Origin: a virus | Length of the DNA stretch: 64,000 nucleotides | Reading direction: 5' to 3' (one strand) | Virus record (IMG/VR): IMGVR_UViG_3300011113_000652 | Location: 1-64,000 of that record | Part shown: in pieces, positions 8,406-64,000 of the stretch | How the letters are laid out: every line of letters starts with the position of its first letter | Numbering within the stretch: the first letter of the stretch is position 1 | Notes under the pieces: model-generated | What the model saw: only the letters and a program-made list of their open reading frames with translations | Told to the model about the DNA's origin: nothing | Database searches by the model: none | Made by a program: the position numbers and the translations under genes

Positions 8406-8603
8406 ATGAAAATAAAATATCGTAAACCCACTTTAATAGAACAAATGACCGAAGCCATTGCAACGGCCAAACAACCCATAGACTATTTTGAGCTCTCGCA
8501 AACAGAATTTCAATCAGTGTTTAATAATTTGGATAAAACCAATTCCAAAAACACAGTCGCATATTCATACAAAGGTATCGCTATAAAGGTCGCAGATGAG
8601 TAA
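8406..8603 (+). CDS. small hypothetical protein
   Basis: 65 aa from ATG 8406; an upstream in-frame start at 8364 would overlap the previous gene by 38 nt. Overlaps queE by 8 nt. No motif recognised. The C-terminus T-V-A-Y-S-Y-K-G-I-A-I-K-V looks like a beta hairpin. Confidence 0.6.
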   Translation: MKIKYRKPTLIEQMTEAIATAKQPIDYFELSQTEFQSVFNNLDKTNSKNTVAYSYKGIAIKVADE

Positions 8604-9465
8604 AATAAAAGTTTCAGAAGTATTCTACAGCCTGCAAGGTGAAGGTCGCTTTGTGGGTGTTCCCAGTGTGTTCTTGAGAACCTATGGTTGCAACTTTACC
8701 TGTGCAGGATTTGGATGCAAGCCAGGCGAAAAGAGCACAGGTGCCGACGACGTGGCTGAAGTAGTGCATTTGTACAACCGATTTGAAGAACTGCCCTTGG
8801 TGGAAACCGGTTGTGACAGTTATGCGAGTTGGCATCCGGCATTCAAACACTTGAGCCCCACACAGACCACAGAAGAACTGGTAGAACGCATGTTGGCACT
8901 GACCCCCAACAACATGTGGCAACAGAACAATGGCAACGACGTGCATCTTGTGATCACTGGTGGCGAGCCTTTGCTGGGTTGGCAACGTGCCTATGCAGAC
9001 CTGCTCAGCCACGATCGTATGCGTGACTTAAAGAATATCACATTCGAGACCAATGGTACACAAAAATTACATGATGATTTTAAACAATATCTAATAGATA
9101 ATTTTTGGACCTATGGGTGTCAAGGTAAAGAAGTAACTTTCAGCGTCAGTGCCAAACTCAGTGCGAGTGGCGAGTCTTGGGAAGATGCTATCTGTCCTGA
9201 TATTGTAGCTGATTATCAGAGCTTTGGAAAAACCTATCTTAAATTTGTTGTGGAATCCGATGAGCACATTGAAGAAGCCATACGTGCCACAGATGCATAT
9301 CGTCGTGCAGGATTTCAGGGTGTAATTTACCTGATGCCACAGGGTGGTGTGGTTGAACCCTACGATAAAAATAAAAAACGCATAGCAGACATCTGTTGTG
9401 CGCAGGGCTGGAACTACAGTCCTAGATTGCATGTAGACTTATGGGGCAACGGATGGGGAAAATAA
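8596..9465 (+). CDS. queE: 7-carboxy-7-deazaguanine synthase (radical SAM)
   Basis: 289 aa. QueE turns 6-carboxytetrahydropterin into 7-carboxy-7-deazaguanine. The N-terminus V-F-Y-S-L-Q-G-E-G-R-F-V-G is diagnostic. C32 and C36 of C-N-F-T-C supply two cluster ligands. The third probably comes from C73 in G-C-D-S-Y-A-S-W, separated by a long insertion containing a further C41, in place of the usual CxxxCxxC. I-T-G-G-E-P-L is the SAM-binding GGEP motif and F-E-T-N-G-T follows. Works with QueD (368). No queC, folE or dpdA is in the window, so the final 7-deazaguanine product is unknown. Confidence 0.9.
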   Translation: MSKIKVSEVFYSLQGEGRFVGVPSVFLRTYGCNFTCAGFGCKPGEKSTGADDVAEVVHLYNRFEELPLVETGCDSYASWHPAFKHLSPTQTTEELVERMLALTPNNMWQQNNGNDVHLVITGGEPLLGWQRAYADLLSHDRMRDLKNITFETNGTQKLHDDFKQYLIDNFWTYGCQGKEVTFSVSAKLSASGESWEDAICPDIVADYQSFGKTYLKFVVESDEHIEEAIRATDAYRRAGFQGVIYLMPQGGVVEPYDKNKKRIADICCAQGWNYSPRLHVDLWGNGWGK

Positions 9466-17538: not shown

Positions 17539-17567
17539 TTGACCAATAAATAACATTAAGTTATAAT
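17539..17567 (+). promoter_or_regulatory. sigma70-type promoter of ssrA
   Basis: TTGACC (17539-17544), 17-nt spacer, TATAAT (17562-17567). Expected start is about 17574, at the beginning of the tmRNA acceptor piece. Confidence 0.75.
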
Positions 17568-17573
17568 TTAAGA

Positions 17574-17830
17574 ATTGTTGTACATCCTTCCAAGTGAAGG
17601 CACTGTGGACCCGGGTTCGACCCCCGGATGCTCCACCTAAGTGTATAAGGTATATTTAGGTGGGGCATTATTTGGATTCGACATGGTGAGCTAGTGCGGA
17701 CGGCAACACAGTAGGCGATGACTGTAAATCAAGCAACTTTATTAAATGCAAACGCATCTAATGACGAGGTTTTTGCCTTAGCGGCATGATCTCCGGGGCA
17801 ACTATGCCTTGTCACCCAAACTAGTCTAAA
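17574..17830 (+). ncRNA. ssrA: circularly permuted (two-piece) tmRNA
   Basis: tmRNA with SmpB rescues stalled ribosomes. The 3' acceptor piece comes first: T stem CCGGG/CCCGG (17611-17627) and acceptor strand ATGCTCC (17628-17634) followed by ACC, with the final A not encoded. After a 24-nt intervening loop the 5' strand GGGGCAT (17662-17668) pairs with it over all 7 bp, followed by the universal G-G-A-T-T-C-G-A-C. The tag frame runs from resume codon GCA 17748 to TGA 17787-17789 and encodes ANASNDEVFALAA, ending in the ALAA degradation signal. Permuted order is known from alpha-/betaproteobacteria and cyanobacteria. The exact 5' and 3' ends are estimated. Confidence 0.9.
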
Positions 17831-17854
17831 AAGCCTGAGAAATCAGGCTTTTTT
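17831..17854 (+). terminator. intrinsic terminator of ssrA
   Basis: AAGCCTGA, a short GAAA loop and TCAGGCTT (8 bp) followed by a T run. Ends the tmRNA transcript. Confidence 0.85.
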
Positions 17855-17931
17855 GTTGGCCGCTAAGTAAAAACCACTAAATAAAGAGTTGGGTGATCGC
17901 CCAGCATTCTTTTAAAAGGAAAATCTCAAGC

Positions 17932-18672
17932 ATGAAAAAATTATTAATCGCATTAGCCTTGTCCGCTGGCTTTGTTGCCTCGGCTCAAGCTCAACTCACT
18001 GGCAATTTAGGTTTGACCAGCGACTACCGTTTCCGCGGTGTTAGCCAAACCCAAAATGCTCCTGCAGTTCAGGGCGGCATCGACTATGCACACAAGAGTG
18101 GTTTCTATGTTGGTAACTGGAACAGCTCGGTCTCTAGCCAAGTCTACACCAATGGTGCAGGCTTAGAAAGCGATCTCTATGCTGGTTACAAGAAAGAAAT
18201 CGTCAAGGGCATCACCGTTGACGTTGGTAGCTACAATTATTTCTATCCACGTGCAACCACTTCAGCAAAGACTGGTTCAAACTTTGACACCTACGAAGGC
18301 TACATCGGCCTAGGTTACAAAGACATCATCTCTGCCAAGTATAGCAGAACCTTAGGCGATGGCTACTTCGGTACAGCAAATGCCCAAGGCACAACCTATA
18401 TGCAAGCAGATGGTAAATTACCAGTTCCTGTGATCAAGAATCTGGCTGTTGTGGCACACTATGGTCGCACCAATGTGGCCAACAGCACAGCATATGATTA
18501 CAATGACATCAATGCTGGTTTTGTTTACAGTCTACCAAAGTCACTTGACTTGAGCGTGAAGTATTTTACCAATACTGGCACAACAAGAACTTTTGAAACT
18601 GCAAACACTGTGAGCGGTCAAAAGCTCTATAAGAATGCAGTGGTAGTGGGCTTGACAAAAACTTTTAATTAA
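17932..18672 (+). CDS. TorF-family (Gcw_chp) putative outer-membrane porin
   Basis: 246 aa from ATG 17932, chosen because a signal peptide begins there (M-K-K-L-L-I-A-L-A-L-S-A-G, cleavage after A-Q-A) and AAAAGGA precedes it. The mature start L-T-G-N-L-G-L-T-S-D-Y-R-F-R-G-V-S-Q is the signature of the TorF/Gcw_chp family of betaproteobacterial outer-membrane beta-barrels. Alternating strands fill the rest and the protein ends in Phe-Asn, with aromatic-rich last strands. It stands alone between two intrinsic terminators. An A-C-T-A-A-A-T-A box at 17876-17883 may be its late promoter. Probably acquired from a host. Confidence 0.85.
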   Translation: MKKLLIALALSAGFVASAQAQLTGNLGLTSDYRFRGVSQTQNAPAVQGGIDYAHKSGFYVGNWNSSVSSQVYTNGAGLESDLYAGYKKEIVKGITVDVGSYNYFYPRATTSAKTGSNFDTYEGYIGLGYKDIISAKYSRTLGDGYFGTANAQGTTYMQADGKLPVPVIKNLAVVAHYGRTNVANSTAYDYNDINAGFVYSLPKSLDLSVKYFTNTGTTRTFETANTVSGQKLYKNAVVVGLTKTFN

Positions 18673-23062: not shown

Positions 23063-23101
23063 TTCCTACCTTGCCTGTATGCCACCAATTGGAGATTGCC
23101 G

Positions 23102-24088
23102 ATGCGAATTCTAGACCAAAATTTTGAAGGCGTGAAAGAGTTAGATCATGCTATTGCCAAAGATTTAGCACAGTATTTTGATTTTGACTTTGTAACAAAA
23201 AATATCAATGACTACCAACTTTGGTTTAATAATCTGAAAAAAATAGCGTTTCAAAATTTGGGTCTGGCTCATTCTGTGTTGCATAATCAAACTGCACATA
23301 ATTGTGTGGAAATTGCATTCAATGAAACTGCACTACCGGAATTTGATCGTTCCTACAGTCAGAACATTGCTGGGCACAGCTTTCTGACTTTGTCTTCGAA
23401 ATCCAAACACGATTCGATCAAATTCGATGGTAAACAATTGTCTGGAACAAAATATTGGATATCAAATGCCAAGGCAGCAGATTTTGTGGTGATGGCCTGT
23501 TTAAATTCTATCAGTAAAGTAAAAAAAATACACTACATTTTTATTGATCTAAAACTTGTAGAGCACAAAATCACCGGCGACGAATATCAACCACTTGGTA
23601 TGAATGTGGCAACTCCTTTCAATCTTGAACTAGATATTGACGTTCCAGAGCACTGGATTATTACCAATGATCACAATCGTGACGACTTTTACCTGGCATC
23701 ATATTTTCATAACTATGGTTTAATCTGCAATTATATTTCCTGCGCAAAAAAATTGTTGGCATTATGCAGGTCTCAAAATTATGATGTTGGTTATGAATTA
23801 GACAAACTAGAACTCAATTTAAAAATTTCAGAAACTTTGTTTGAACAAAGCATTGAAAAACTGTTTGATAAAAATACCAAGACAAAATTTTACTTTTTCA
23901 ACAATCAATATCAATTTGCAAGGAAAAATTTAATAGATGTCACAAAATTTTTTATTGAACTCGGTAGTTCATCCTTGTTGGATTCTAAATCACCTGCATC
24001 GCAGGTGGTGCGAGACAGTTTAATGATGACCTCACATTTGGTAAATCTTTACAATCACATGAATAATGCCATTACAAGATTTTTCTGA
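23102..24088 (+). CDS. acyl-CoA dehydrogenase-like flavoprotein
   Basis: 328 aa from ATG 23102 (GGAG 7 nt upstream; the in-frame TTG 23096 is rejected). F-D-G-K-Q-L-S-G-T-K-Y-W-I-S-N-A-K-A-A-D is the beta-domain signature of acyl-CoA dehydrogenases (G-T-K-x-W-I-T-N), and E-L-G-S-S-S-L-L followed by V-V-R-D-S matches the C-terminal helix bundle. Shorter than bacterial enzymes (~380 aa); no catalytic Glu is obvious at the usual place. AT-rich with many Asn/Lys, unlike its neighbours. It could act as an oxidase or N-hydroxylase, as some family members do. Confidence 0.65.
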   Translation: MRILDQNFEGVKELDHAIAKDLAQYFDFDFVTKNINDYQLWFNNLKKIAFQNLGLAHSVLHNQTAHNCVEIAFNETALPEFDRSYSQNIAGHSFLTLSSKSKHDSIKFDGKQLSGTKYWISNAKAADFVVMACLNSISKVKKIHYIFIDLKLVEHKITGDEYQPLGMNVATPFNLELDIDVPEHWIITNDHNRDDFYLASYFHNYGLICNYISCAKKLLALCRSQNYDVGYELDKLELNLKISETLFEQSIEKLFDKNTKTKFYFFNNQYQFARKNLIDVTKFFIELGSSSLLDSKSPASQVVRDSLMMTSHLVNLYNHMNNAITRFF

Positions 24089-25264: not shown

Positions 25265-26440
25265 ATGATAAGCCTTGAACAAAACACCAAACTTGGCTTT
25301 TACACAGTGGGTGATAAGGTATTTTACAGCAAGCCACAGGCCTTGATCGAAGCCACACTCACTGGACATCATCCTCATTGGAATTTCAATCGGGAGATTT
25401 TCCTTAAGGAACCGTGGCAACAAGAACCTTTAGCATCCCTGAGAGATTTATATCGTATACGAGCACAGCAGTTGCGAGAAAAGTATGATTACATACGGCT
25501 GGAATGCAGTGGTGGAGCAGACAGTACCACCACTCTTTATAGTTTTTTATTGAATGGGATCCATATTGATGAAATTATATTCAGATATCCCAAACAGGGC
25601 GAACACGGAATCACTCCTAACGCAAATAATACCAAACCAGAAAACACATTAAGCGAATGGGAGTATGCTGCCAAACCCTTGCTAAAATGGGTGAGCCAAA
25701 ACTATCCCAAAGTGCGTGTCACCTTTCATGATTACAGTGACAACATTCTTAAATTTAAAAACGACGAAAGTTGGACTGATGTTGCCAAAGATTATCTACA
25801 TCCAGAACACACGTTCAAGCATGATCCTCTTGCCACCAGCGATCAAATTAATTTAGCCGAGTCGGGCAAGCGTATATGTGTGCTATATGGCATAGACAAA
25901 CCAAAAATTTGCATACGCGATGGCCGATGGTATTTTTATTTCTTAGATCTGCAGGCAAATCATGCCAACACCAATGTTGGGCACTTTACAAATATTACTA
26001 CCGAATATTTCTTTTGGTCGCCTGATCTCCCAGAACTGCTGAGAAAACAAGTACATGTTATACGTAACTGGTTTATGCAACCTATGAATCGTCATTTACA
26101 GTTTTTGATCCGATGGCCCAATCACTCCGTAGCTCAACGTACCACCTATGAAAGTTTGACCAAGCCATTGATCTATCCTGATTATGATCCTACGACCTGG
26201 CAAACCAGCAAACCCACCAACAATTTTTATGCCGAAATGGGGTATTGGTTTTATAAAAATTTCCAAGACAGCAGATTTTACAAGGTTTGGGAAGCTGGCA
26301 TCGATCACATGGTAAACAAAATAGATCCAAAATATTTTACCTACGAATTGGGCAGACCAGTGGGATTCGTCGGATTCTTTGATGAATTTTATGAAATCGG
26401 TTCCAGTGATTTTGTCAATAACGATATCGCATATCAATAG
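25265..26440 (+). CDS. PP-loop (N-type ATP pyrophosphatase) protein
   Basis: 391 aa. L-E-C-S-G-G-A-D-S-T-T near residue 80 is the PP-loop that binds ATP in asparagine synthetase, GMP synthetase and QueC-type enzymes, which adenylate a carbonyl or carboxylate for amide or nitrile formation. The N-terminus has F-Y-S-K-P-Q-A-L and a W-N-F-N element shared with the paralogue at 29487. No glutaminase domain or QueC zinc cysteines are visible, so ammonia or an amine would be the acceptor. Its stop is 7 nt before an exported TctC protein. Confidence 0.65.
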   Translation: MISLEQNTKLGFYTVGDKVFYSKPQALIEATLTGHHPHWNFNREIFLKEPWQQEPLASLRDLYRIRAQQLREKYDYIRLECSGGADSTTTLYSFLLNGIHIDEIIFRYPKQGEHGITPNANNTKPENTLSEWEYAAKPLLKWVSQNYPKVRVTFHDYSDNILKFKNDESWTDVAKDYLHPEHTFKHDPLATSDQINLAESGKRICVLYGIDKPKICIRDGRWYFYFLDLQANHANTNVGHFTNITTEYFFWSPDLPELLRKQVHVIRNWFMQPMNRHLQFLIRWPNHSVAQRTTYESLTKPLIYPDYDPTTWQTSKPTNNFYAEMGYWFYKNFQDSRFYKVWEAGIDHMVNKIDPKYFTYELGRPVGFVGFFDEFYEIGSSDFVNNDIAYQ

Positions 26441-26447
26441 GAGCACT

Positions 26448-27344
26448 ATGAAAAAACTTTTAGGAATTCTGTTTGTGATGTTGGTCTCTACTGCACAGGC
26501 ACGAGAAACCGTGACCCTTGTCTATCCCTGGGGAATGGGTGATCCCATGGCCAACTACAGTCGTACTTTGATAGAAGTAGCCAACAAACAGCAAGACAAA
26601 TATATCTTTGTCTTAGAAAATCGCCCTGGCGCAGGAGGAACCATTGCAGCCAAACATGTACAAACCAATTCCAATTCTATCTTGGCAGCCAGCACTGCTT
26701 TTTTTGTGCGGCCAAATTTTTATCCTGATGCTAGTCACGACATCAATCAATTCCGTGTATTAATGACTCAATGTACGGTGCCCATGGTTATTAGCAGCAA
26801 TCAATATCGTTCCTGGAATGATATTCCTAGAGATACTCCACTTCTCACTGGAGTCAGTGGTATAGGTGCCACTACACACCTCATTGCCTTGCAGATAAAA
26901 CAAAAATATCCTAGTCTGACTGTGGTACCTTATAAAAGCACACAAGAAAGCACACTGGACTTGGTCGGGGCCCGAATAAATCTTAACGTGGGATTTCCTC
27001 AAGAAGTTGCACAATGGATTTCAACCGGTAAAGCACATGGACTAGGAGTAACAGGAACTCGCCCGATCAACAATATACCAACTATGAGTAGTCTTGGTTA
27101 TCAACACATGGATAGCATGGGTAATGGACACAGTCTTATAGTAAATCTACAGGTATCACAAGCTAAATTTCAAGAATGGCGACGTATTTTTCTAAAGGCT
27201 GCACAGCACTACTCGGTTAGACAAAGTTATGAACTTGACCACTGTGTGCCAATGGATTTTGATATGAAGCAAACTAACAGCTGGTATACCCAGCAAACTA
27301 CATTCTGGAAAGAACAATCAAAATCAGTGCAACTTGATAAATGA
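26448..27344 (+). CDS. TctC-family periplasmic binding protein
   Basis: 298 aa from ATG 26448 (AGGAG upstream; the long in-frame extension overlaps the previous gene). Signal peptide M-K-K-L-L-G-I-L-F-V-M-L-V, cleavage after A-Q-A. V-Y-P-W-G-M-G-D near the start replaces the family's V-P-F-x-x-G-G, and E-N-R-P-G-A-G-G-T is the TctC/Bug signature. Such proteins bind carboxylates in the periplasm and hand them to TctAB. No TctA or TctB is in the window. Confidence 0.8.
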   Translation: MKKLLGILFVMLVSTAQARETVTLVYPWGMGDPMANYSRTLIEVANKQQDKYIFVLENRPGAGGTIAAKHVQTNSNSILAASTAFFVRPNFYPDASHDINQFRVLMTQCTVPMVISSNQYRSWNDIPRDTPLLTGVSGIGATTHLIALQIKQKYPSLTVVPYKSTQESTLDLVGARINLNVGFPQEVAQWISTGKAHGLGVTGTRPINNIPTMSSLGYQHMDSMGNGHSLIVNLQVSQAKFQEWRRIFLKAAQHYSVRQSYELDHCVPMDFDMKQTNSWYTQQTTFWKEQSKSVQLDK

Positions 27345-27352
27345 TATAAATA
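27345..27352 (+). promoter_or_regulatory. T4-like late promoter box TATAAATA
   Basis: Perfect match immediately after the TctC stop codon, 135 nt before the DctP-like gene. Transcription from here would include the structured leader. Confidence 0.6.
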
Positions 27353-27357
27353 AATCA

Positions 27358-27487
27358 GCAGCGCCAACAGGGGTTGACGCCGGATTCAATGACGCTTAGA
27401 GTCAAACTCTTTTACTAATGTGTGACATTAGAACGCCTACCGTAGCGATAAAATCGCAAGCACCAGATATAAAAATAGGAAATACAA
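27358..27487 (+). promoter_or_regulatory. structured 5' leader of the DctP-like gene
   Basis: 130 non-coding nt with three hairpins: GCGcCAAC/GTTGaCGC (one mismatch, from 27360), CTAATGT/ACATTAG (27416-27432) and GCGAT/ATCGC (27445-27457). A TAGGAAA ribosome site follows. Matches no riboswitch class I can name. Confidence 0.45.
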
Positions 27488-28441
27488 ATGACTAAAACTA
27501 CTAAAATCCGTTGGGTGATCGCTCACGAGCCGTTGAGCTTGTTTATTCGTGCTGCTAAAGATTTTGAGCGCGAAGTAAATGCCCAACAAAGCACGCATAA
27601 GTTAGAGATTGAAATTATGACTTTGAGTGAATACAGCGAACGCCATAACAACGGTGTTGTTGTTACCAAACACGATTTGTTAGACTTAATGGATAACAAT
27701 AAAATTGAAATGAGTCAAATGTATACTACATGGCTTGCTGAACATTATAGTAATGACATGCATGTGTTGGATATGCCTTTCTTGTTTGAAGATCATGATC
27801 ATGCCAGCCGTGTGTTGGAAGGTCCAGTTGGCGAATATCTGTTGGGCAGCATCAAAGAAAAGTCCAATATCCGTGGTCTGGCATTTACATACTCGGGCGG
27901 TTTCCGTTGCATCTTGAGTTCAAAACAAATCCATACATTGGCTGACTTTGCTGGCGCACCAATTCGTTCCAACAAAAACCCAATGGCCATGGAAACATTC
28001 CGTGCTATCGGTGCAGAACCAGTGGCAATGGAATTGGAAGAAATCAATCAGGCCACTGAATCTGGACTTGTAGTTGGTGGTGAAACTGCTTATCCAAGGA
28101 TTTATCCATTGGAACAAGACAAGTATCACAGTACGATTGTTGACAGCGAACACAGTTTGTTCTTGACATCCGTGATTATTACTGACACATTTTGGAACAG
28201 CCTTGATGCCGAACTACAACAAGTGATTAAAACTGCCGCTGTTAAAGCCGGTCGTAGTGAGCGTGTCGAGTCAATTATCGACGGTGAACAGGCCAAAGAG
28301 CGTTTTGTCAGCGAAGGCAAAGAAGTTGTGCGTCTTAGCACACAAGATCAAAAAGAATTTCGCCAACGCACTGCTGTAGTATATGACAAATTTAAAGATT
28401 TTTTCAGTCCAGGGCTAGTGGACCAAATTCAAAAAGGTTGA
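27488..28441 (+). CDS. DctP-like TRAP solute-binding protein without signal peptide
   Basis: 317 aa. Family features: L-D-M-P-F-L-F-E-D-H-D-H-A, V-L-E-G-P-V-G-E-Y-L-L near residue 112, G-L-A-F-T-Y-S-G-G-F-R, and A-P-I-R-S-N-K with the Arg expected to bind a substrate carboxylate. The N-terminus M-T-K-T-T-K-I-R-W-V-I-A-H starts directly at mature strand 1 and no signal peptide is possible, so the protein should stay in the cytoplasm. Codons differ from neighbours (more CGT, GGT, GTT, GAA), as in highly expressed genes. It has its own leader and terminator-like hairpin. Confidence 0.8.
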   Translation: MTKTTKIRWVIAHEPLSLFIRAAKDFEREVNAQQSTHKLEIEIMTLSEYSERHNNGVVVTKHDLLDLMDNNKIEMSQMYTTWLAEHYSNDMHVLDMPFLFEDHDHASRVLEGPVGEYLLGSIKEKSNIRGLAFTYSGGFRCILSSKQIHTLADFAGAPIRSNKNPMAMETFRAIGAEPVAMELEEINQATESGLVVGGETAYPRIYPLEQDKYHSTIVDSEHSLFLTSVIITDTFWNSLDAELQQVIKTAAVKAGRSERVESIIDGEQAKERFVSEGKEVVRLSTQDQKEFRQRTAVVYDKFKDFFSPGLVDQIQKG

Positions 28442-28449
28442 ACAAAGCA

Positions 28450-28480
28450 TAGCGAATGAATCTTTAAGATTCATTCGCTA
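28450..28480 (+). terminator. 13-bp perfect hairpin after the DctP-like gene
   Basis: TAGCGAATGAATC and its exact complement separated by TTTAA, followed by a T-rich stretch. Acts as a terminator or 3'-end stabiliser and closes the DctP unit. Confidence 0.65.
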
Positions 28481-28551
28481 TTGTCTGTATTTTTAAGTCA
28501 GTATCTCAAATCAAATTGTTGTAGTCTTGTTATTCTAAGAAAGGTTTACCC

Positions 28552-29487
28552 ATGAAAAAACTCATTATGGTATTCGTGGCGGCCATTTTGTGCTTGTGTG
28601 GTAACATGGCCATCGCGAATGTCACAATCATTGTGCCCTTTTCCGTCGGCGGAAATGTTGACTTATGGTCCAGACAATTGGCCAGCTTTTCAGACAAACA
28701 TCATAATACGCGAACCATAATCCAAAATCGTTCAGGAGCAGGCGGACTGATAGGCTACAATGCTTACCTGACATTACCGCCGGATGTAACATCCTTAATC
28801 GGCGTGGGGCCAGGTATAATGCTGTTCGAACCTATGCGCACCAAAGAAATTGACCCGTTGCGGGACTTGACTATAATTTCTCCTTTTCTGGCCAGTCCTG
28901 AGGTCATGGCAATCAACACAAAAACCAGCAAAGTCAAAACCATGAAGGAATTATTTGGGCCTACCAACAACAGGTTGAGCATAACCATTGGTGTGGGCGG
29001 CACAGCACATGAATTTTTTGCACGTTGGATGCAAAAGTATACCACACATGAGTTGATCATAGTTCCTTTCAAAGGCAGCGGCGACGTGAAAACTGCACTG
29101 TTGGGTGGACACATAGATATCATGCTGGATAATCTGGGTATCGTAGTTACCAACATAGGCAAAGACATTGAGATATTGGCATTAGGATCAGCTCCAACCG
29201 ATTCTAGATTCAATCAGTATCCGTTGATGCATGATTGGCTGGATGGGTTTATTTTTTACAACTGGTCAGCTCTGGCAGTAAACAGCAAGTTAGAGAAGAC
29301 ACAAATCCAAGAACTTAGAAAAAAATATTCACAACATGTTTTTTCAAAAGATTTTCAACGACAGGCACACGAACAAGGAATGGCAGTAATGTCTGTGCTA
29401 GATGGAACGTTTGAAGCTCAAATAAAAAAACAAGCCCATCAATGGCGCATGATAAATGATCAATTGAAGATTTTAAAAGCAAACTGA
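28552..29487 (+). CDS. TctC-family periplasmic binding protein (second copy)
   Basis: 311 aa. Signal peptide M-K-K-L-I-M-V-F-V-A-A-I-L with cleavage near A-I-A-N. The mature protein opens V-T-I-I-V-P-F-S-V-G-G-N-V-D, the canonical TctC motif, followed by Q-N-R-S-G-A-G-G-L. Closer to the family consensus than the copy at 26448. RBS AAAGG upstream. Its stop (TGATG) overlaps the start of the second PP-loop gene, tying binding protein and PP-loop enzyme together. Confidence 0.8.
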   Translation: MKKLIMVFVAAILCLCGNMAIANVTIIVPFSVGGNVDLWSRQLASFSDKHHNTRTIIQNRSGAGGLIGYNAYLTLPPDVTSLIGVGPGIMLFEPMRTKEIDPLRDLTIISPFLASPEVMAINTKTSKVKTMKELFGPTNNRLSITIGVGGTAHEFFARWMQKYTTHELIIVPFKGSGDVKTALLGGHIDIMLDNLGIVVTNIGKDIEILALGSAPTDSRFNQYPLMHDWLDGFIFYNWSALAVNSKLEKTQIQELRKKYSQHVFSKDFQRQAHEQGMAVMSVLDGTFEAQIKKQAHQWRMINDQLKILKAN

Positions 29488-30662
29488 TGTATAACATATT
29501 TGACTTTGACAGATATGGTTATTATCTTTCATCCGATAAAAAAAAGTTTTACAACAAACTAGAATGTATTTTATACTGTAAGGCGCATGGTTTTGATTTT
29601 TCTTGGTGTTTCAATAACAACTACTTTGATCTGATAAACTGGTCGATCGAACCAAAATCTAGCATACAAGATTTATATGCACAACGAGCGCAAGAACTCA
29701 GGAACAAATACGATTATCTTGTCCTGCATCTCAGTGGTGGACATGACAGTGGAAATATCCTGCAGACCTTTGCTGTTAACGATATCAAACTGGATGAAGT
29801 AATTACACGTGGGCCGTTTTCTGACAGCATCCAGGATCCTACAATTAGATCTGCGGAAAATACCTATGCTGAGATTGGCCTTGCTGCAGTTCCTGCTGCA
29901 AAAATTTTCAAAGAACAATATCAACCTGATCTAAAAATTACCATAGTAGAGACCAAACAATTAGCCGTTAATATCATGAGAGATAACCCCGCCTGGTTTG
30001 AAGGATACAACGACTTAGATCCTGGCATGTTTTTACGTGCGACTCCAAATTATTTGGATCAAAGATATACCAAGATGGTGGATCAAGGAAAGACCGTGGC
30101 ACATATCACAGGCATGGAAAAACCAAGATTTTTTCGCCGAGGAAACAGCCTGCACCTGATATTTGATGATGAATCATTGAATCGACACAATCCGTTACGC
30201 AACGACAATAGCAACTATAATTTTATTGAACATTTTTATTGGGCGCCGTCAGCTGGCGAACTACTGTGCAAACAAGGGCACCTGGTGTTAAAAGCATTAA
30301 ATTGTTTGCAAAACGGTAAATCGCATGCAGACAAACTCTTAACCGATTGGGGCAGTCGCAACATTCAAGATTGGATAGCATCTGTAATTTACCCTAAGAA
30401 ATTTTTGCCGCACTGGGATTGTCAAAAAGCCAGTCATGGTTTTATAAGAGACTGGGACAGTTGGTTTTATCGTGACGAAAATGCTGATTTTTTGAGGGCC
30501 TGGCAACAAGGCATGCAATATCTAAACTCAGTGGTGCCAGTCGGCCATATGAAAAAAAACAACATGTATCTTGGTGGTTTTAAACCAAAATTTTCTATTG
30601 ACAGATACCTTGGCGAAATCTGTGCTACTTCTAGCCCGTACCAACAAGTCAGCATGCACTAA
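29487..30662 (+). CDS. PP-loop (N-type ATP pyrophosphatase) protein, second copy
   Basis: 391 aa, the same length as its paralogue at 25265. L-H-L-S-G-G-H-D-S-G-N near residue 79 is the PP-loop; S-I-Q-D-L-Y-A-Q-R-A-Q-E-L-R-N-K-Y-D-Y just before it is nearly shared with the other copy (L-Y-R-I-R-A-Q-Q-L-R-E-K-Y-D-Y). The two are otherwise quite diverged, suggesting different substrates. One-nt overlap with the TctC stop. Confidence 0.65.
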   Translation: MYNIFDFDRYGYYLSSDKKKFYNKLECILYCKAHGFDFSWCFNNNYFDLINWSIEPKSSIQDLYAQRAQELRNKYDYLVLHLSGGHDSGNILQTFAVNDIKLDEVITRGPFSDSIQDPTIRSAENTYAEIGLAAVPAAKIFKEQYQPDLKITIVETKQLAVNIMRDNPAWFEGYNDLDPGMFLRATPNYLDQRYTKMVDQGKTVAHITGMEKPRFFRRGNSLHLIFDDESLNRHNPLRNDNSNYNFIEHFYWAPSAGELLCKQGHLVLKALNCLQNGKSHADKLLTDWGSRNIQDWIASVIYPKKFLPHWDCQKASHGFIRDWDSWFYRDENADFLRAWQQGMQYLNSVVPVGHMKKNNMYLGGFKPKFSIDRYLGEICATSSPYQQVSMH

Positions 30663-40835: not shown

Positions 40836-41810
40836 ATGAAAATACTAGTAACCGGAGGTCTGGGATTCATAGGACACAATGTGGTGTCGCGTCTGGAAGC
40901 ACAAGGACATGATGTTGTTATAGCAGATACACAAAGCACATACAACATAGTGCCCGAGTCTGAAATAGCCTACTTGATGGCAGAGCGCCGAGAAAAAATA
41001 CGCACAGACCGGATCTACAGCATAGACATGGTGGATCGTGCTGGTATCCACTGGCTGATTCGTCAGCATAGACCCGATACTGTCGTGCACCTGGCCAGCT
41101 TTCCCAGACAAAAAGTGGTCAATGCCGATGCACCAACTGGCAGCCGAGTCATGAGCGAAGGTCTACTGAACCTGCTGGAGGCCGCAGTGGCCAACTCGGT
41201 GGGCAGATTTGTGTATGCCAGCAGCAGCATGATCTACGGTGACTTCCACGGCACAGGTCCCAACGGCATAGATGAATCTCATGCGTGCCGGCCCTTGGGT
41301 CAGTATGGCATCATGAAGCTGGCCGGAGAGTGGTTGGTCAGAGACTACACAGTACGCACCGGAATGGCACATACCATTGTACGGCCCAGTGCAGTGTATG
41401 GACCCTTGGATGTGGAGGATCGTGTGATCAGCCAGTTTCTTATCCGGGCCATGCGCGGTCAAGAAATACAGGTGCGCGGTGCCGATGAACTATTAGATTT
41501 TACCTATGTGGGCGACACTGCCGATGGAATTGTGGCCGCCGCACAGAGCCCCAACGCCGAAAATAAAACCTACAATATCACACGTGGCCATAGCAGGACC
41601 TTGCTGGAAGCAGCACAGATAGCAGTAAACTTGGCACAACGTGGCACCATACGGATCCTGGATCCTGATGCGGCTTTTCCCAGCCGAGGTCAGTTAAATA
41701 TCTCAGCGGCACAACGAGATTTTAATTTTGAACCAGGTGTAGACATAGAACAAGGATTCAGAGTCTATTACACCTGGTTAAGTCAGTCTAATTACTTTGG
41801 TATAAAATGA
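40836..41810 (+). CDS. NAD-dependent epimerase/dehydratase
   Basis: 324 aa. T-G-G-L-G-F-I-G NAD loop, V-V-H-L-A-S, Y-A-S-S-S-M-I-Y-G with the catalytic Ser, Y-G-I-M-K Tyr/Lys, and V-R-P-S-A-V-Y-G-P. Full-length extended SDR acting on a nucleotide sugar. ATGA overlap with the amidinotransferase. Confidence 0.88.
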   Translation: MKILVTGGLGFIGHNVVSRLEAQGHDVVIADTQSTYNIVPESEIAYLMAERREKIRTDRIYSIDMVDRAGIHWLIRQHRPDTVVHLASFPRQKVVNADAPTGSRVMSEGLLNLLEAAVANSVGRFVYASSSMIYGDFHGTGPNGIDESHACRPLGQYGIMKLAGEWLVRDYTVRTGMAHTIVRPSAVYGPLDVEDRVISQFLIRAMRGQEIQVRGADELLDFTYVGDTADGIVAAAQSPNAENKTYNITRGHSRTLLEAAQIAVNLAQRGTIRILDPDAAFPSRGQLNISAAQRDFNFEPGVDIEQGFRVYYTWLSQSNYFGIK

Positions 41811-42823
41811 TAAATTCTAACTTTGGTTTTACTTCCTTAAAAGAAATTTGGTTGGGTGACTGTTACCCAGAGTCATACTATGATCATTTACCAAATGAAA
41901 TTGCTGATCCTTTCAGACAAATAACGCAGTGGACCAAAGAAGATACTGGCCGTTTGCAGAGATTTTTAGAAAGTTATGGCATTACTGTACGGAGACCTCA
42001 ATTCACAAAAATAGAAAACTATCTTGACAGTCGCGATAATTTGGTTAAACCACCTATTACACCTAGAGATCATTACTTGGTGCTAGGAAACACCTTATAT
42101 TCATTACACAATCAACTTAAAAATGATCCTTGGCTACACTGGTTAGAATACTATCGCACGCAGAAATACGACGTACAAGAACCCAAAGATCAACCAATTA
42201 ACTGTGTATGCCCACCATCTGTGGTTCGCATAGGAAGAGATCTATTCATTGATAAAGGAGCACACGAACACATGTGGGGATTTGTCTGTCAATGGATGGT
42301 AGGAGCAGCAAATGAATATCGAGTAAACATTTGTGACACAACTGGACACAGCGATAGTGTGTTTTGTCCAGTAATGCCAGGAGTAATTGTGACCTCACAT
42401 TACAAAACTGATTATTCTCAAAGTTTCCCTGACTGGGAAATTTTTCATCTACCAAAGAATCTACACAATTTTAACAATCCAAAAGACTGGTCGACATATG
42501 ACAGCAAAATAGATTCAAATAAAGCATTTTCGGATCATATAATAAAAAATGCCAGTAATTGGGTTGGCACGTTCAGTGAAACAGTAGCTGAAGTTAATAT
42601 GTTGGTAATCGATGAAAAAAATATTGTTGCTATGAAAGATTATCCTCCGTTGACAGAATGGCTTTATCAACGTGGTATTACCGTACATTTTTTTGATTTT
42701 AAAACGAGAAGTTTCTGGGATGGAGGCTGGCACTGTCTTACTTTAGACATTCACAGGCAAGATCACAAACTTGATTTGTTTCCCGATCGAGGCGATAACG
42801 GTGTATATTGGAGATTGAAGTGA
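41807..42823 (+). CDS. glycine/inosamine-type amidinotransferase
   Basis: 338 aa. K-P-P-I-T-P-R-D near residue 82 is the family's P-R-D motif, G-H-S-D-S-V-F contains the catalytic His/Asp, and G-G-W-H-C-L-T-L-D near residue 307 has the catalytic Cys of the G-G-x-x-C-x-T motif. Moves an amidino group from arginine to an amine, as in creatine or streptomycin pathways (StrB1). Coupled to an epimerase before and a DegT aminotransferase after, so an amino-sugar or aminocyclitol acceptor is likely. AT-rich. Confidence 0.85.
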   Translation: MINSNFGFTSLKEIWLGDCYPESYYDHLPNEIADPFRQITQWTKEDTGRLQRFLESYGITVRRPQFTKIENYLDSRDNLVKPPITPRDHYLVLGNTLYSLHNQLKNDPWLHWLEYYRTQKYDVQEPKDQPINCVCPPSVVRIGRDLFIDKGAHEHMWGFVCQWMVGAANEYRVNICDTTGHSDSVFCPVMPGVIVTSHYKTDYSQSFPDWEIFHLPKNLHNFNNPKDWSTYDSKIDSNKAFSDHIIKNASNWVGTFSETVAEVNMLVIDEKNIVAMKDYPPLTEWLYQRGITVHFFDFKTRSFWDGGWHCLTLDIHRQDHKLDLFPDRGDNGVYWRLK

Positions 42824-46590: not shown

Positions 46591-47776
46591 ATTTGTATTT
46601 GATAAGCGTAACCATGACAGACCCTATCCAAATCTAGCACCCATGATGGACAACCCACACCAAAGTTATCATGGCATGGGCGACGAACATCCTTTTATAG
46701 TTCCGTGCCGGCTCTTGTATTATGCTAAAGACCACGGATATCCTTGCCAAATTTCTTATTTGGATGAACCCATACCCGATCAGGCCTGGTACCCGGTGGG
46801 GCTGGGATTTTTCCATTTTGAAATAGATTACTTTGGCATGATGTCAGAACATGTAAAAGATCTTTTGCGTTCACGAGCCTTGCGAGCATTGTTTTATTAT
46901 CATGAAGGGGACAGCCCATATCACGAAAAATCCAGACTGGATCAACTTTGTCGCCAACATAATTTACCAATGGATTGTTATAAATTTGTCAGTGGTAATA
47001 CTGCTGCTGATCAAATTCCAGGTTTCTGTTGGTTTCCAGACCATGAACTGTTCTATTGGCGTAACAGTGTCAAATGGAATGATCGCAGCATGCCCGGCGT
47101 CAGTTATCATAACAGGCCCAGGACTCGAAGATATACTGCACTCAATCGTATACACAAGTGGTGGAGAGCCACCATTATGACCGAGCTAAAGCAACAAGGT
47201 ATCCTGGACAACAGCCACTGGAGTTACAACAACATAGATCAAAATGATCAATGGCATGACAATCCCATTGAATTGTGGAGATTTGATAATTTGGAACAAC
47301 GTCTTAAAGATTTTGTAGATCAAAGTCCATACACCTGTGACCATTTAGATTCCGTTGGACACAACAGCCATTGGTTGTTTGTGCCCGAACACTTTGACGA
47401 TTCATATTGTAATTTGGTATTGGAAACCTTGTATGATGCCGAACAAAGCGGTGGCGCCTTTATAACTGAAAAAATATTCAAACCCATTAGACACGCACAA
47501 CCATTTGTGGTATTTGGCACTGCGAATACCCTGGTGACCTTGCGCAATCTTGGGTATCAAACATTTGATACTCTATTAGATAATTCTTATGACAGCGAAA
47601 TCAATAATACTACTCGTTTTATAAAAACCTTAAATACAATCAAACAGATGAATCAGACCAGTTTACATGAATTTTATGTCAGTTGTAAAGATCAACTGTT
47701 ACACAACCAAGAATTATTTTTAGCATCAAAATATCCAAGATTACAAATGCTTGCCCAAAAACTCAATCATGATTAA
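46583..47776 (+). CDS. glycosyltransferase-like protein of the T-E-K-x-x-K family
   Basis: 397 aa from GTG 46583, behind a good AGGGGG. I-T-E-K-I-F-K-P-I-R-H-A-Q-P-F-V-V-F-G then L-G-Y-Q-T-F-D-T-L-L-D-N-S-Y-D. F-Y-Y-H-E-G-D-S-P corresponds to the D-Q-E-P region of the upstream paralogue. Acceptor unknown. Confidence 0.6.
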   Translation: MFKFVFDKRNHDRPYPNLAPMMDNPHQSYHGMGDEHPFIVPCRLLYYAKDHGYPCQISYLDEPIPDQAWYPVGLGFFHFEIDYFGMMSEHVKDLLRSRALRALFYYHEGDSPYHEKSRLDQLCRQHNLPMDCYKFVSGNTAADQIPGFCWFPDHELFYWRNSVKWNDRSMPGVSYHNRPRTRRYTALNRIHKWWRATIMTELKQQGILDNSHWSYNNIDQNDQWHDNPIELWRFDNLEQRLKDFVDQSPYTCDHLDSVGHNSHWLFVPEHFDDSYCNLVLETLYDAEQSGGAFITEKIFKPIRHAQPFVVFGTANTLVTLRNLGYQTFDTLLDNSYDSEINNTTRFIKTLNTIKQMNQTSLHEFYVSCKDQLLHNQELFLASKYPRLQMLAQKLNHD

Positions 47777-48800
47777 CAGCTACACCTCCTGGCAACCACT
47801 TGAAGCAGTCATAGTTGGACGTGCTTATAGTCCTGATTATTTTGATTTTTTGGAGAACACACAGGTCAGGAATCAATTACAGCAAATCCTGGCAGAGACT
47901 GCCGAGGATTTAGATAACTTGCAACACATCATAGAACAGTATGGAGCCAAAGTTTATAGACCTGATTTGCCCGATAAACAAGATTTTATAATAAATCAAA
48001 TCAATAATCAAGTTCCCTTGCCACCGCTGACTCCACGAGATTGGCAAATAACACTGGGCCAAAAACTTTTGAGAATCATTGCTCACCATGGACTGAATAA
48101 TATCTGCAATAATTTTCCTGATCAAATAATAAATCCTCACTATCAACCCAAGAATCGTTATCACTGGGATCCCAATTGCATACTCAATGGTGCATCAGCC
48201 AGTTGCATTGTGCGTGTAGGGCGAGACATATTCTTTGACAATTCAGACATGTTACGACCAGAACAAAGTCGCTGGATAGTTGACAATGTTTTGGGACCAG
48301 AATATCGCATACACGAAGCTGTTACTGATGGACATGGCGATGCTGTGTTTGCCATATTGAAACCAGGTGTGATACTTTCTAGCAAACACGATCAAAATCT
48401 AAATTTTGAAAAAGATTTTCCAGGCTGGCAAGTGCTACGTGTCATGGACTCCAGCATAGATGCAGCCATGACCGCAGGCAAGTTTCGTCATGAAAATGGT
48501 CCGCAGGCTTGGTATGTTCAAGGGCAAACACCTACACCAGAGTTTACTGAGTACGTTGACACTTACTTGAACGAATGGACCGGCTTTGTGGCCGAAACAG
48601 TGTTTGATGTCAACTGCTTGGTCCTGGATGAAGAGAATGTGATATTTGGTGCCTACAACAAGAATGTTTTTGATTTCTGCGAGAAAAACAGAATCAATCC
48701 TATCATTTCAGAACTGCGCCACAGCTATTTTTGGGATGGTGGCATCAGTTGTTGCACTCAGGATCTCAGACGTCGCGGCGGTCTTGAGACTTATCTATAA
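47769..48800 (+). CDS. amidinotransferase, second copy
   Basis: 343 aa from ATG 47769 (8-nt overlap upstream). L-P-P-L-T-P-R-D motif, D-G-H-G-D-A-V-F with catalytic His/Asp, and G-G-I-S-C-C-T-Q-D with the catalytic Cys. Diverged from the copy at 41807, so probably acts on a different amine. Its 3' end overlaps the convergent minus-strand gene by 6 nt. Confidence 0.85.
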   Translation: MINSYTSWQPLEAVIVGRAYSPDYFDFLENTQVRNQLQQILAETAEDLDNLQHIIEQYGAKVYRPDLPDKQDFIINQINNQVPLPPLTPRDWQITLGQKLLRIIAHHGLNNICNNFPDQIINPHYQPKNRYHWDPNCILNGASASCIVRVGRDIFFDNSDMLRPEQSRWIVDNVLGPEYRIHEAVTDGHGDAVFAILKPGVILSSKHDQNLNFEKDFPGWQVLRVMDSSIDAAMTAGKFRHENGPQAWYVQGQTPTPEFTEYVDTYLNEWTGFVAETVFDVNCLVLDEENVIFGAYNKNVFDFCEKNRINPIISELRHSYFWDGGISCCTQDLRRRGGLETYL

Positions 48801-49650: not shown

Positions 49651-50781
49651 TTAAAATATCAAAGATGGCCAGAGTTGCGCAAAGGTATGTTTTTGTTTTA
49701 GGATAGTTTCTTGCTTCAGATGAAATTCGGCTGGAGTTACGGTACTTGGCGATTCTGTATAGTCCAGTCTTTGTTGATATTGTTTCAGTGTGTCTAGGCT
49801 TAGATTATGGTAACCGCTCCATTTATCAATCACAGTAGCAATTTCTTGTTGAGCCAGTTTCCGCAAATGCAATGGCAGACGTTTGACATCTAGTTCGTAA
49901 GGATTAGTGAGTTCGCACCAAAATATATCCAGGTCATTTTGTTCACAGAATTCATAGTATTCAACCAAATCAAATGCACAGTAAATTGAATAAGCCGGAT
50001 GAGCAACAGGCCTGATGCCATGTGACTTGACCAAATCAATGTTGTGCAAAAACAGCGACCAGTCACAGCCGGCACGAACATATTCAAATTTGTCACGTTG
50101 CACGTTGTCGAAACTGATCAGCCAACTGACATTGGGCCAATTTTTCAGTTCTTGATAAACAGGATTTCGAGATAAATCCACAGCCAAATTGGTTGTAATC
50201 ATAACATTCACTTGTTGTGGATCAAGTTGTTGCAAAAACTCTGGCAGGCTTTTTTGCAACAAAGGTTCACCGCCTCCTAGGCTGATACCTTTAAGGGTAT
50301 CTTTGTGTTCCTGTGCTAGTTCGATTAGATGAACATGATCATTTTTGATTATCTGTATTGGCTTGTTCAATGCAGCCTGCCAGGCTGTGCTGGTTTGAGG
50401 ATTACAATAGGTGCAAGTTAAATTGCACAAACTACTCCAATTCACAGTAAGATCCGTTAGTTGGAAATAATTGATGTCACGGTCAATGCTATCTGCAACT
50501 TGGTCACCCATGGTCATCATCATCCTGGCACTTGAGCCAGTCTGAGCTTCATTTGTTTTGCAGTTGGTACACAATGGGTGCCATTGACCTGCTGCTATGG
50601 TTTCTTTGAGACCGAGATGTTCTGGACCATTGATAATTTCTTGTATTGTTTTTTGATTCACGTTGCCCAGTTTTAGATCATCTACATGACTGTTAAGACA
50701 AGGCAACACACGACCAGATTGATCAATGTTCAATGAGGTCCACGGACATGGGCAAAATGTTGGGCTTTGAGATATCAGCAT
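49651..50781 (-). CDS. radical SAM protein, twitch-type
   Basis: 376 aa. C-N-L-T-C-T-Y-C near residue 119 holds the SAM [4Fe-4S] cysteines, and L-G-G-G-E-P-L follows. Before it, F-C-P-C-P-W and L-P-C-L-N-S, with C-T-N-C about 45 residues further on, suggest an auxiliary cluster domain. First strand of the barrel L-T-V-N-W-S-S-L. Such proteins recur in marine phages; reaction unknown. Confidence 0.8.
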   Translation of the reverse strand: MLISQSPTFCPCPWTSLNIDQSGRVLPCLNSHVDDLKLGNVNQKTIQEIINGPEHLGLKETIAAGQWHPLCTNCKTNEAQTGSSARMMMTMGDQVADSIDRDINYFQLTDLTVNWSSLCNLTCTYCNPQTSTAWQAALNKPIQIIKNDHVHLIELAQEHKDTLKGISLGGGEPLLQKSLPEFLQQLDPQQVNVMITTNLAVDLSRNPVYQELKNWPNVSWLISFDNVQRDKFEYVRAGCDWSLFLHNIDLVKSHGIRPVAHPAYSIYCAFDLVEYYEFCEQNDLDIFWCELTNPYELDVKRLPLHLRKLAQQEIATVIDKWSGYHNLSLDTLKQYQQRLDYTESPSTVTPAEFHLKQETILKQKHTFAQLWPSLIF

Positions 50782-50784
50782 GGT

Positions 50785-52251
50785 CTAAGACAGCACTTTG
50801 ATTTTGTAGAGTTTTTCAAATCTATCAGCGTCAGCACGATCGTTGACCATGGGTTCGCCGCGTATGTTCAAACTGGTGTTCAACAACATAGGGCAACCTG
50901 TGGCCGTATACCAGGCCTCTAAGAGCGATCTAATGCCTGAGCCGTCAGCCTCAACAGTCTGTACTCGGCTAGTGTCGTCCACATGACAGATAGCAGGGTA
51001 TAAGTCAGGACTGCGACAAGTTGCGACTGACTGCATATAAGGACTACAACTCCAACCCCGGGGCATATCAAAAAGTTCATGCACATGCTCTGCCAGGATA
51101 ACCGGTGCAAACGGTCTAAACTTTTGCCTACGTTTGATCTCATTGACTTGGTCCTTTATATCTGATCCTCGGGGATCGGCAAGGAGACTTCGATTTCCAA
51201 GGGCTCGAGGTCCAAATTCTGCTCGACCACTAGCGACACCGACGATTCTATCACTTTGTAAATGATCAACGAGGGCGCGAACAGGATATTCTCCTGGGAT
51301 TTCATGGCCAAGGTACGCATCTGTCCAGCGTAGACGTCTTCCGTGGGCCAATGCGGCAGCACCAAGGCTGTTGCCAGCATCGCCAGGGCAAGGCATGATC
51401 CAAATGTTTTCAAAATATTCACCGAGTTTTCTATTTGCAAGACAGTTCAAAGCCACGCCGCCCTGATAGACTAGATTTGAGCTCCAGTCTAACTCCCGGG
51501 CACGACGCATAACACTATATATCAGTTCTTCTGCTAAAACTTGTGCAGATGCCGCAATATCTTCATTGTGGGCCAACCACAGCCACGCAGGATCAATGCC
51601 CACATGCAGGTTATCTTCCAGCAGGGTACGACACTCTTCCACATATAGCGGCTGACCATAGGCACTCATGCCCATGGTAATGTATTCTTCGTCTAGCGGG
51701 TGTAGGCCAATGCGCTGAGTAACGGCACTATAAAACAGCCCAATGCTCCGGGGATAAGTTTGGCTCCAAAGTTTCTTATACCTTGCTTGACCTTGCGGAT
51801 CATATTTTGCTCCCCAGATTGAAATGGTATCAAACTCACCTATGGCATCTATGACCACACAGGTGGCACGATCATAGGCACTGGTTTGAAAACCTGCTGC
51901 CGCATGGCACAGGTGATGACTGTAAGTTTTTATTTGTCTGGGCGGATGTTGCAACCAGTCTCCCAGTTGATTTCGTAGCACTTGATTGACAGTGATGTTT
52001 GACCAATCTATGCCCTGACCACTCACAAAATTACGTGCTTGTTTTAACCAAGGGCGCTCGTAATAAGCAATGGTATCTATAGGGTATTCGCAGAACTCAT
52101 TTAACATGCTGAAATGAATATCAGCATCGTTTTTGTTTTTTGAATATCGTTCGCTATGACCAGCAAACACAATTTCACCGTCGCTGCGTAACAGCGTGGC
52201 GGCCGCATCATGAAATCCGGCACTGAGTCCCAGTATATACTGATGCTTCAT
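50785..52251 (-). CDS. NodU/CmcH-family carbamoyltransferase
   Basis: 488 aa. L-G-L-S-A-G-F-H-D-A-A-A near the N-terminus is the YrdC/Kae1-like ATP site; Y-S-H-H-L-C-H-A-A-A contains the metal histidines and D-E-E-Y-I-T-M-G-M-S-A-Y-G is typical. C-terminal domain with G-R-A-E-F-G-P-R-A-L-G-N-R-S and L-N-T-S-L-N. Transfers a carbamoyl group from carbamoyl phosphate to a hydroxyl, as in Nod factors, cephamycin and tobramycin. Slightly shorter than bacterial members (~560 aa). Confidence 0.9.
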   Translation of the reverse strand: MKHQYILGLSAGFHDAAATLLRSDGEIVFAGHSERYSKNKNDADIHFSMLNEFCEYPIDTIAYYERPWLKQARNFVSGQGIDWSNITVNQVLRNQLGDWLQHPPRQIKTYSHHLCHAAAGFQTSAYDRATCVVIDAIGEFDTISIWGAKYDPQGQARYKKLWSQTYPRSIGLFYSAVTQRIGLHPLDEEYITMGMSAYGQPLYVEECRTLLEDNLHVGIDPAWLWLAHNEDIAASAQVLAEELIYSVMRRARELDWSSNLVYQGGVALNCLANRKLGEYFENIWIMPCPGDAGNSLGAAALAHGRRLRWTDAYLGHEIPGEYPVRALVDHLQSDRIVGVASGRAEFGPRALGNRSLLADPRGSDIKDQVNEIKRRQKFRPFAPVILAEHVHELFDMPRGWSCSPYMQSVATCRSPDLYPAICHVDDTSRVQTVEADGSGIRSLLEAWYTATGCPMLLNTSLNIRGEPMVNDRADADRFEKLYKIKVLS

Positions 52252-52349
52252 TTATAGATAAAAGGATCCCGCTTGCGAAGTTCTTTCAACTTTTTACGAT
52301 ATCTTATTTCCAATTTGACGCGATTGATTATGTTTTTTATCCAAGACAT
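52248..52349 (-). CDS. 33-aa basic peptide coupled to both neighbours
   Basis: Begins 13 nt inside the end of the preceding gene and its TGA overlaps the carbamoyltransferase ATG. M-S-W-I-K-N-I-I-N-R-V-K-L-E is an amphipathic helix, then R-Y-R-K-K-L-K-E-L-R-K-R and a D-P-F-I-Y-K end. I remember similar D-P-F-I-Y endings in small proteins of marine phages. Translational coupling on both sides argues that it is real. Confidence 0.65.
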   Translation of the reverse strand: MSWIKNIINRVKLEIRYRKKLKELRKRDPFIYK

Positions 52350-55602: not shown

Positions 55603-55610
55603 TTTTATCG

Positions 55611-56861: not shown

Positions 56862-56862
56862 G

Positions 56863-57591
56863 TTATCTGGTTACCATTGGTAGTGTTCTTGCTAGTACCC
56901 CTGCCGAAACTGGCTCTACAATTTTACAAATAGCATCCACTGTGGCGTCTGTAGGAATTGTGGCAGGTAAAGGTTGATTGTTGATTAAAATGTGTGCATG
57001 ACACCAAGCAAGCCATAACAAACTATTAAAATTATTTAAATGTTTCGATGGATCCGGGCACGTAGACTTATAATATTCTATGCTAGAGTGACAGTAACTT
57101 CTATCACGAGTGTATTTAATACTGCATCTATCTAATACAGAAAATAAGCGATCAATGAATTGATCTGGATCTTCTATTAGTAATTTATAATCAAGCTCTC
57201 CTGGGTGCTCCCAAGTTTTTTGCCATAGTGTATCTGTTAATATGTACACTGCACTGTTGGTTAAAGTGTAAAATTGGTCAATTATTGATTGGTCTGACAA
57301 ATTTAATATACGATATCTTACTTTTACTGCATCGTTGATAAATTGATTAAACCAGCAAGGGGATGAAAATTTTATTAAATTGTCGCCTTTGCATGATTCA
57401 TCAAATGTGGCAGTTTTTCCATCTACTAAATTAAATAAATGACTTTGCAAAAAATTGGCGGACGTGGGTTGGCCATCAAACACCACATCTACATCAGGCA
57501 GGTCAAATTGACTGGTCTCTAATCTCCATATTAAATTATTCAACCAATAACCGCCGGATCCACGTGGATAACAAATAATATTGCGTTTCAC
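56863..57591 (-). CDS. sulfotransferase-like protein (tentative), second copy
   Basis: 242 aa from GTG 57591, which overlaps the upstream stop as GTGA and has AGGAG in front. I-I-C-Y-P-R-G-S-G-G-Y-W-L-N-N-L-I is the nucleotide-loop candidate, and L-L-W-L-A-W-C-H-A-H the block shared with 48795. AT-rich. Stop lies 1 nt before the next start. Confidence 0.42.
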   Translation of the reverse strand: MKRNIICYPRGSGGYWLNNLIWRLETSQFDLPDVDVVFDGQPTSANFLQSHLFNLVDGKTATFDESCKGDNLIKFSSPCWFNQFINDAVKVRYRILNLSDQSIIDQFYTLTNSAVYILTDTLWQKTWEHPGELDYKLLIEDPDQFIDRLFSVLDRCSIKYTRDRSYCHSSIEYYKSTCPDPSKHLNNFNSLLWLAWCHAHILINNQPLPATIPTDATVDAICKIVEPVSAGVLARTLPMVTR

Positions 57592-63964: not shown

Positions 63965-64000
63965 TGTTGACTCCAATATTTACAATCATTCCACCAGGCT

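Follow-up and report, generated by a model that had tools for sequence, protein, structure and literature searches.

A recurring gene module of AsnB-type synthetase-like and carboxylate-binding proteins in uncultured phages, with a possible role in acquiring and converting a small carboxylate

A known case of a phage-encoded periplasmic binding protein serving uptake by the host is PstS of cyanophages (PMC6359870), and for the tripartite tricarboxylate transporters (TTT) a domain hit to the permease gene tctA has been reported in a SUP05 viral contig (PMC4164917). Here we discuss five genes at 25265-30662 of a 64,000-nucleotide stretch, referred to below as the window, which comprises positions 1 to 64,000 of the 70,905-bp IMG/VR virus record IMGVR_UViG_3300011113_000652. 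All five are on a single strand in the order PP1-TctC1-DctP-TctC2-PP2, the two PP proteins being PP-loop proteins and the other three solute-binding proteins of two families, TctC of TTT type and DctP of tripartite ATP-independent periplasmic (TRAP) type. The cyanophage pstS differs from this arrangement in being a single gene for phosphate with no linked synthetase and no cytosolic binding protein, the SUP05 report gives the tctA domain hit only and describes no TctC/PP/DctP module, and the open-licence papers that we searched contain no description of such a module. We propose with moderate confidence that the genes belong to a modular phage system that acquires and converts a small carboxylate by capture, import, buffering and amidation.

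PP1 (25265..26440, plus strand, loop SGGADS) and PP2 (29487..30662, plus strand, loop SGGHDS) flank TctC1 (26448..27344), DctP (27488..28441) and TctC2 (28552..29487), all on the plus strand. The first-pass annotation had described two 391-aa PP-loop paralogues bracketing TctC, DctP and TctC, and this is borne out by gene order, strand, Pfam scores and the 28% identity of PP1 and PP2 (E 5e-37), each of which has an SGGxDS loop. Their equal length is a coincidence, as family members vary in length. The one-base overlap that had been noted is also correct, since the stop codon of TctC2 (29485-29487) and the ATG of PP2 share position 29487. For TctC1 we take as the start the ATG at 26448, 7 nt 3' of PP1, which is preceded by GGAG and opens a signal peptide; the TTG at 26379 is the mechanical start. 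A strong hairpin of 15 perfectly paired bp after DctP (28449..28481, either strand, fold z-score -3.0), probably a bidirectional terminator, makes the run read as a PP1-TctC1 pair, a single DctP and a TctC2-PP2 pair. Upstream of DctP a motif scan gave TATAAATA (27345..27352, plus strand), a weak resemblance to a T4-type late promoter that is not significant window-wide (4 matches against 2.05 expected, with 16 of 100 shuffles reaching 4), and the stretch between TctC1 and DctP shows nothing unusual in its RNA fold (z -0.73).

The linkage is not peculiar to this record. IMG/VR, the contigs of which are assemblies of uncultured viruses without isolates, was scanned independently with PP (71 loci), DctP (best 80 of 493 confirmed relatives) and TctC (best 80 of 99 relatives), with clustering at 80% identity and each scan counted separately. 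PP directly adjoins TctC or DctP in 32 of 48 non-redundant clusters, DctP adjoins PP or TctC in 16 of 21, and TctC adjoins PP or DctP in 41 of 56, so the adjacency by which the first-pass annotation proposed that its idea be judged is conserved in many relatives. Both gene orders are common (37 non-redundant pairs with PP>TctC and 24 with TctC>PP), many PP/TctC gaps lie between -36 and +15 bp, and overlaps of 1-4 bp are frequent. PP and TctC distances correlate (r 0.50, 0/5000 permutations), and in a nearest-partner comparison the nearest neighbour was shared in 12 of 61 pairs. A close relative of 76,792 bp keeps both pairs 13 kb apart, with TctC2-PP2 at one site and PP1-TctC1-DctP at another; its PP2 is 85% identical and the TctC2/PP2 overlap is the same. 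Many marine DctPs first appeared solitary, but an iterated profile revealed beside most of them a divergent PP-loop gene with AsnB-like WSGGIDST...GExGDxIFG motifs, related to the PP family of the window by profile comparison (E 9e-10). The module is found in numerous uncultured phages from fresh and marine waters, jumbo phages being frequent among them, and the five genes, first taken as one unit, are instead two PP/TctC pairs and a separately movable DctP.

PP1 and PP2 gave no meaningful match in Pfam, PHROG or NCBIfam models, and PDB sequences searched with a PP profile yielded none either, matches coming from fold comparison alone. The AlphaFold2 model of PP2 (predicted local distance difference test 86.5, predicted template modelling score 0.89, 41-sequence alignment) has the PP-loop ATP-pyrophosphatase fold that had been anticipated. 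Foldseek put beta-lactam and carbapenam synthetases at the top (E 2e-4), and the VIA ranking is headed by human AsnS (Z 12.3), E. coli AsnB (12.2) and beta-lactam synthetase (11.6), followed by NadE (8.7) and LarE (8.2). With ASNS, VIA aligned 283 residues at a root-mean-square deviation of 5.4 and the synthetase-domain fold is recognisable, the AsnB-type fold spanning PP2 residues 1-364 in an alignment that begins at model residue 1. PP thus has in common with AsnB, beta-lactam synthetase and carbapenam synthetase the synthetase-domain fold (Z 12.3 to 9.6), a preceding helix, a GxxxD-type motif and the SGGxDS loop, present as such or as a one-letter variant in 176 of 178 distinct family members. 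It differs from AsnB-type enzymes in having no N-terminal Ntn glutaminase with its catalytic Cys after Met: the loop is preceded by a median of 88 residues, and 0 of 178 members start with Met-Cys. The PF00733 gathering score is not reached by PP1 or PP2, which are without a Pfam family, and of 16 marine relatives only 2 show any match to PF00733 (best E 0.0088). On the model, then, PP is a protein of predicted AsnB-type synthetase fold and not an asparagine synthetase by membership. PP1 aligns with the family and has an orthologue in phage G001 (57% identical). One PP pattern, run against 84,980 cellular species, found no relative of PP, and the cultured phages of INPHARED gave no PP relative and only poor matches for TctC and DctP.

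Both TctC proteins are above the Pfam cut-off of 27 bits for PF03401 (TctC1 41.1, TctC2 55.7), TctC2 has a PDB relative in 7ndr (E 1.4e-22), and the signal peptides read from the sequence are MKKLLGILFVMLVSTAQA for TctC1 and MKKLIMVFVAAILCLCGNMAIA for TctC2. DctP scores 158.1 bits with PF03480 (cut-off 23.4), matches phrog_31178, and with NCBIfam passes NF037995 (128.5, cut-off 50) and falls under the cut-off of TIGR00787 (117.7, cut-off 175). It begins directly at the mature first strand (MKTIRWVLAHEP...). Signal peptides were judged from hydropathy and by eye, and by the hydropathy measure an export signal is present in 121 of 124 viral TctCs and in 0 of 96 viral DctPs. DctP, having no signal peptide, is predicted to be cytosolic, so that it and the exported TctC would not be expected to work in one compartment, which was overlooked when a shared carboxylate ligand was first suggested; such a ligand is the best available explanation, with importers present in relatives.

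Compared with TctABC, the phage TctC proteins are like its receptors in Pfam match and signal peptide, and TctA is adjacent in some relatives; however the record of the window lacks TctA, and phage TctC is linked to PP-loop enzymes. Likewise phage DctP resembles TRAP receptors in its PF03480 match and in the classical ligand arginine R160, but of the features of a TRAP system it has the DctP domain without the periplasmic location or DctM. In the phage subfamily H13, E14, R160, R204 and H222 are invariant across marine and freshwater phages, R204 being additional to the TRAP pattern, and GES or GET takes the place of the usual GEN motif. In one subclade two half-genes encode DctP, the division falling exactly before K(I/L)RTNRNP (L008:7359-8307, L046:7335-8287, L094:5001-5960, L100:3964-5981, L233:4992-5994, L238:5038-5990, L245:2884-3859 and L282:5041-5990). 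The junctions differ, being ATGA overlaps, 13-bp overlaps or short gaps, and since they vary while the protein position of the split stays constant we reject a frameshift error, or any single sequencing error, as its cause. The split DctP is probably a natural two-piece binding protein.

The nearest exported DctPs are in Bdellovibrionota (Bacteriovorax and relatives), at 35-45% identity. Signal-less DctPs 60-64% identical to that of the window are present in four bacterial contigs (L159, L160, L162 and L171) from Bacteriovorax and gammaproteobacterial metagenome-assembled genomes, and flagellin and housekeeping neighbours show L159 and L171 to be chromosomal. In 4 of 4 the gene order is an oxalate/formate-antiporter-type major facilitator superfamily protein, a 2-oxoglutarate (2OG)-dioxygenase-family protein and the signal-less DctP. 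This association of a carboxylate carrier and a 2OG oxygenase with a cytosolic DctP gives the best independent indication of what DctP may do.

The absence of TRAP or TTT membrane subunits noted by the first-pass annotation holds for the 70,905-bp fragment, in which TctA and DctM are absent, but not for the family. TctA was not found in the G000 or G001 records, both fragments, but 3 of 20 large relatives encode it, as do L009 and L055. It adjoins PP, TctC or DctP in L009 (PP-DctP-TctA-TctC), L055 (TctA-PP), G011 (L298; PP-TctA-TctC-DctP-MHS symporter, the last an H+/metabolite symporter) and G012 (L299; Porin_4-TctA-TctC-PP-dioxygenase-SDR-dioxygenase), and is a few kb off in G007; the divergent TctC-like proteins encoded by L298 and L299 are recognised only by the family profile that we constructed and not by Pfam. 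TctB was seen as one fragment only, in one phage, and 22 phage records have no DctM, no search for DctQ having been made. Porins also occur, as in the L058 group (Porin_4-TctC-PP). The window has a TorF-family outer-membrane porin gene (17893..18672, plus strand, likely ATG 17932; PF09694 164.7 bits; TIGR02001 153.3 bits, above cut-off), which is a possible module partner because the same family is close to the module in other phages. A tmRNA gene (17546-17880, tag ANASNDEVFALAA) lies directly upstream of it. In one jumbo phage a PstS gene (L297:6458-7459, minus strand) is a few kb from TctA and PP-TctC-DctP.

A protein of about 200 aa is a further recurrent partner (L299:8144-8728, L299:9336-9923, L012:8120-8755 and L082:6939-7574). 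The members tested have no Pfam or NCBIfam match and one marginal PHROG match, but HxD...H...R is invariant (H100, D102, H171, R180) and the protein models as a 2OG dioxygenase, with HxD...H, a distal Arg and a double-stranded beta-helix. It is closest to hydroxylases and halogenases of free amino acids (proline 3-hydroxylase Z 11.2, HalA/BesD about 10), and in phages its gene often shares one base with TctC.

Gene linkage, the predicted compartments and folds and the import parts of relatives together suggest how such a system might work. TctC would capture a carboxylate in the host periplasm and pass it to a TTT permease, which would be the host's own in the phage of the window as far as it is sequenced and phage-encoded TctA in some relatives. 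The cytosolic DctP would bind the imported acid or a derivative, as buffer or carrier, and PP, lacking its own glutaminase domain, would adenylate the carboxylate with ATP and couple it with ammonia or an amine. The dioxygenase that some phages have may then hydroxylate or otherwise oxidise the product, and a phage with several divergent PP/TctC pairs would use them for different acids.

Several points weigh against this. Having no permease, the window would rely for import on a putative host partner, and the ligand and reaction of the module proteins are putative. The likeness of PP to the catalytic residues of AsnB is at motif level, and a few PP proteins have SGGADG in place of SGGxDS. TctC sequences are highly diverse, with TctC1 lacking the usual PGGxxD loop, several DctP and PP copies stand alone, and shared phage ancestry may contribute to the correlation of PP and TctC distances.

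A more ambitious version, which we regard as tentative, is a phage biosynthetic pathway with a dedicated uptake route of pore, periplasmic receptor and permease and with cytosolic DctP as carrier, in which the imported acid would be amidated and then oxidised by the 2OG enzyme to a phage-specific small molecule. The product may be a nutrient conjugate, a signal, an antimetabolite or a virion or DNA modification. The clavam and carbapenem pathways also pair a synthetase with a 2OG oxygenase, resembling the module enzymes, though we do not claim a beta-lactam product.

It is unlikely, in our judgement, that the role is simply to boost uptake, with TctC raising the organic-acid uptake of the host for carbon or energy as PstS does for phosphate in cyanophages, and the PP neighbours doing other work such as surface-glycan or cofactor chemistry. 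There is precedent for phage binding proteins without full transporters in that same pstS (PMC6359870), a PstS gene is near the module in G007, and TctA and porins accompany TctC. However no gene accompanies TctC more constantly than PP, which does so in either order and with overlapping reading frames, and it would be left unexplained why marine phages that have no TctC link a cytosolic DctP to PP.

Rather improbable too is the proposal that DctP is a cytosolic sponge or sensor that sequesters a carboxylate, whether metabolite or signal, for instance to counter a defence or to time the infection, with PP modifying the same ligand. That none of the viral DctPs has a signal peptide would fit, as would the strong sequence conservation, in which the five invariant residues suggest one specific ligand, and the terminator that DctP has to itself in the window. 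But no defence genes were seen beside DctP, and the co-occurring importers point to metabolism: TctA, the MHS symporter and the porins in relatives, with the chromosomal oxalate/formate-antiporter operon of the bacteria, favour uptake with conversion over pure sensing.

We give little credence to PP being QueC-like and part of a 7-deazaguanine pathway. Genes for a 6-pyruvoyltetrahydropterin synthase/QueD domain (368-817) and a QueE-like radical SAM protein (8596-9465) are present in the window and PP has weak QueC matches, but its fold is AsnB-type over residues 1-364 and nothing links TctC or DctP to deazaguanines. QueC membership of PP is rejected, with PF06508 at 11.9 bits against a cut-off of 22. 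The QueD-like and QueE-like genes themselves hint at 7-deazaguanine chemistry in this phage; the record has no QueC above cut-off. Least credible of all is chance assembly in a jumbo-phage cargo hot spot with no functional link, for although the pairs differ in genome position between related phages and variable cargo abounds in the region, the adjacency recurs independently, in two orders, in phages of both marine and fresh waters, overlaps of 1-4 bp are frequent, the pair remains joined when relocated, and the adjacency and distance data already largely refute it.

The 70,905-bp record most likely represents part of the genome of a jumbo myovirus, as its MoxR ATPase and exonuclease are closest to the PA5oct/Paride group of jumbo phages (51% and 53% identity). 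There is no terminase gene in the sequenced piece, but module-bearing relatives of 315-374 kb do encode one, which places the module in genuine tailed phages. The window also carries, besides the tmRNA, seven tRNAs. Upstream of the module is an acyl-CoA-dehydrogenase-like protein (23096-24088, weak PF02770), and elsewhere there are a protein of the flavin-dependent tryptophan-halogenase family, in a phage (34798-36408; PF04820, 303 bits), and two related proteins (41807-42823 and 47751-48800) that look amidinotransferase/deiminase-like by eye and have no Pfam match at E 0.001. A long run on the minus strand (49654-63976) encodes radical-SAM-like proteins, a carbamoyltransferase (50788-52251) and proteins, about 300-380 aa in length, with the look of glycosyltransferases, which gives it the appearance of an island for glycans or small molecules.

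Most auxiliary genes by which phages promote nutrient uptake stand singly, as pstS does, whereas the genes of this module recur as a set whose products reach from the outer membrane through periplasm and inner membrane into the cytosol, with an ATP-dependent synthetase at the end. DctP, which has no signal peptide and is sometimes split, clearly exemplifies a transport receptor that has become intracellular. With lengths of about 300-430 aa, the core proteins are soluble and expressible, so that ligand and reaction are directly testable. If the proposal is right, these phages would divert organic acids, a main carbon source of bacteria in water and sediment, to a specific product.

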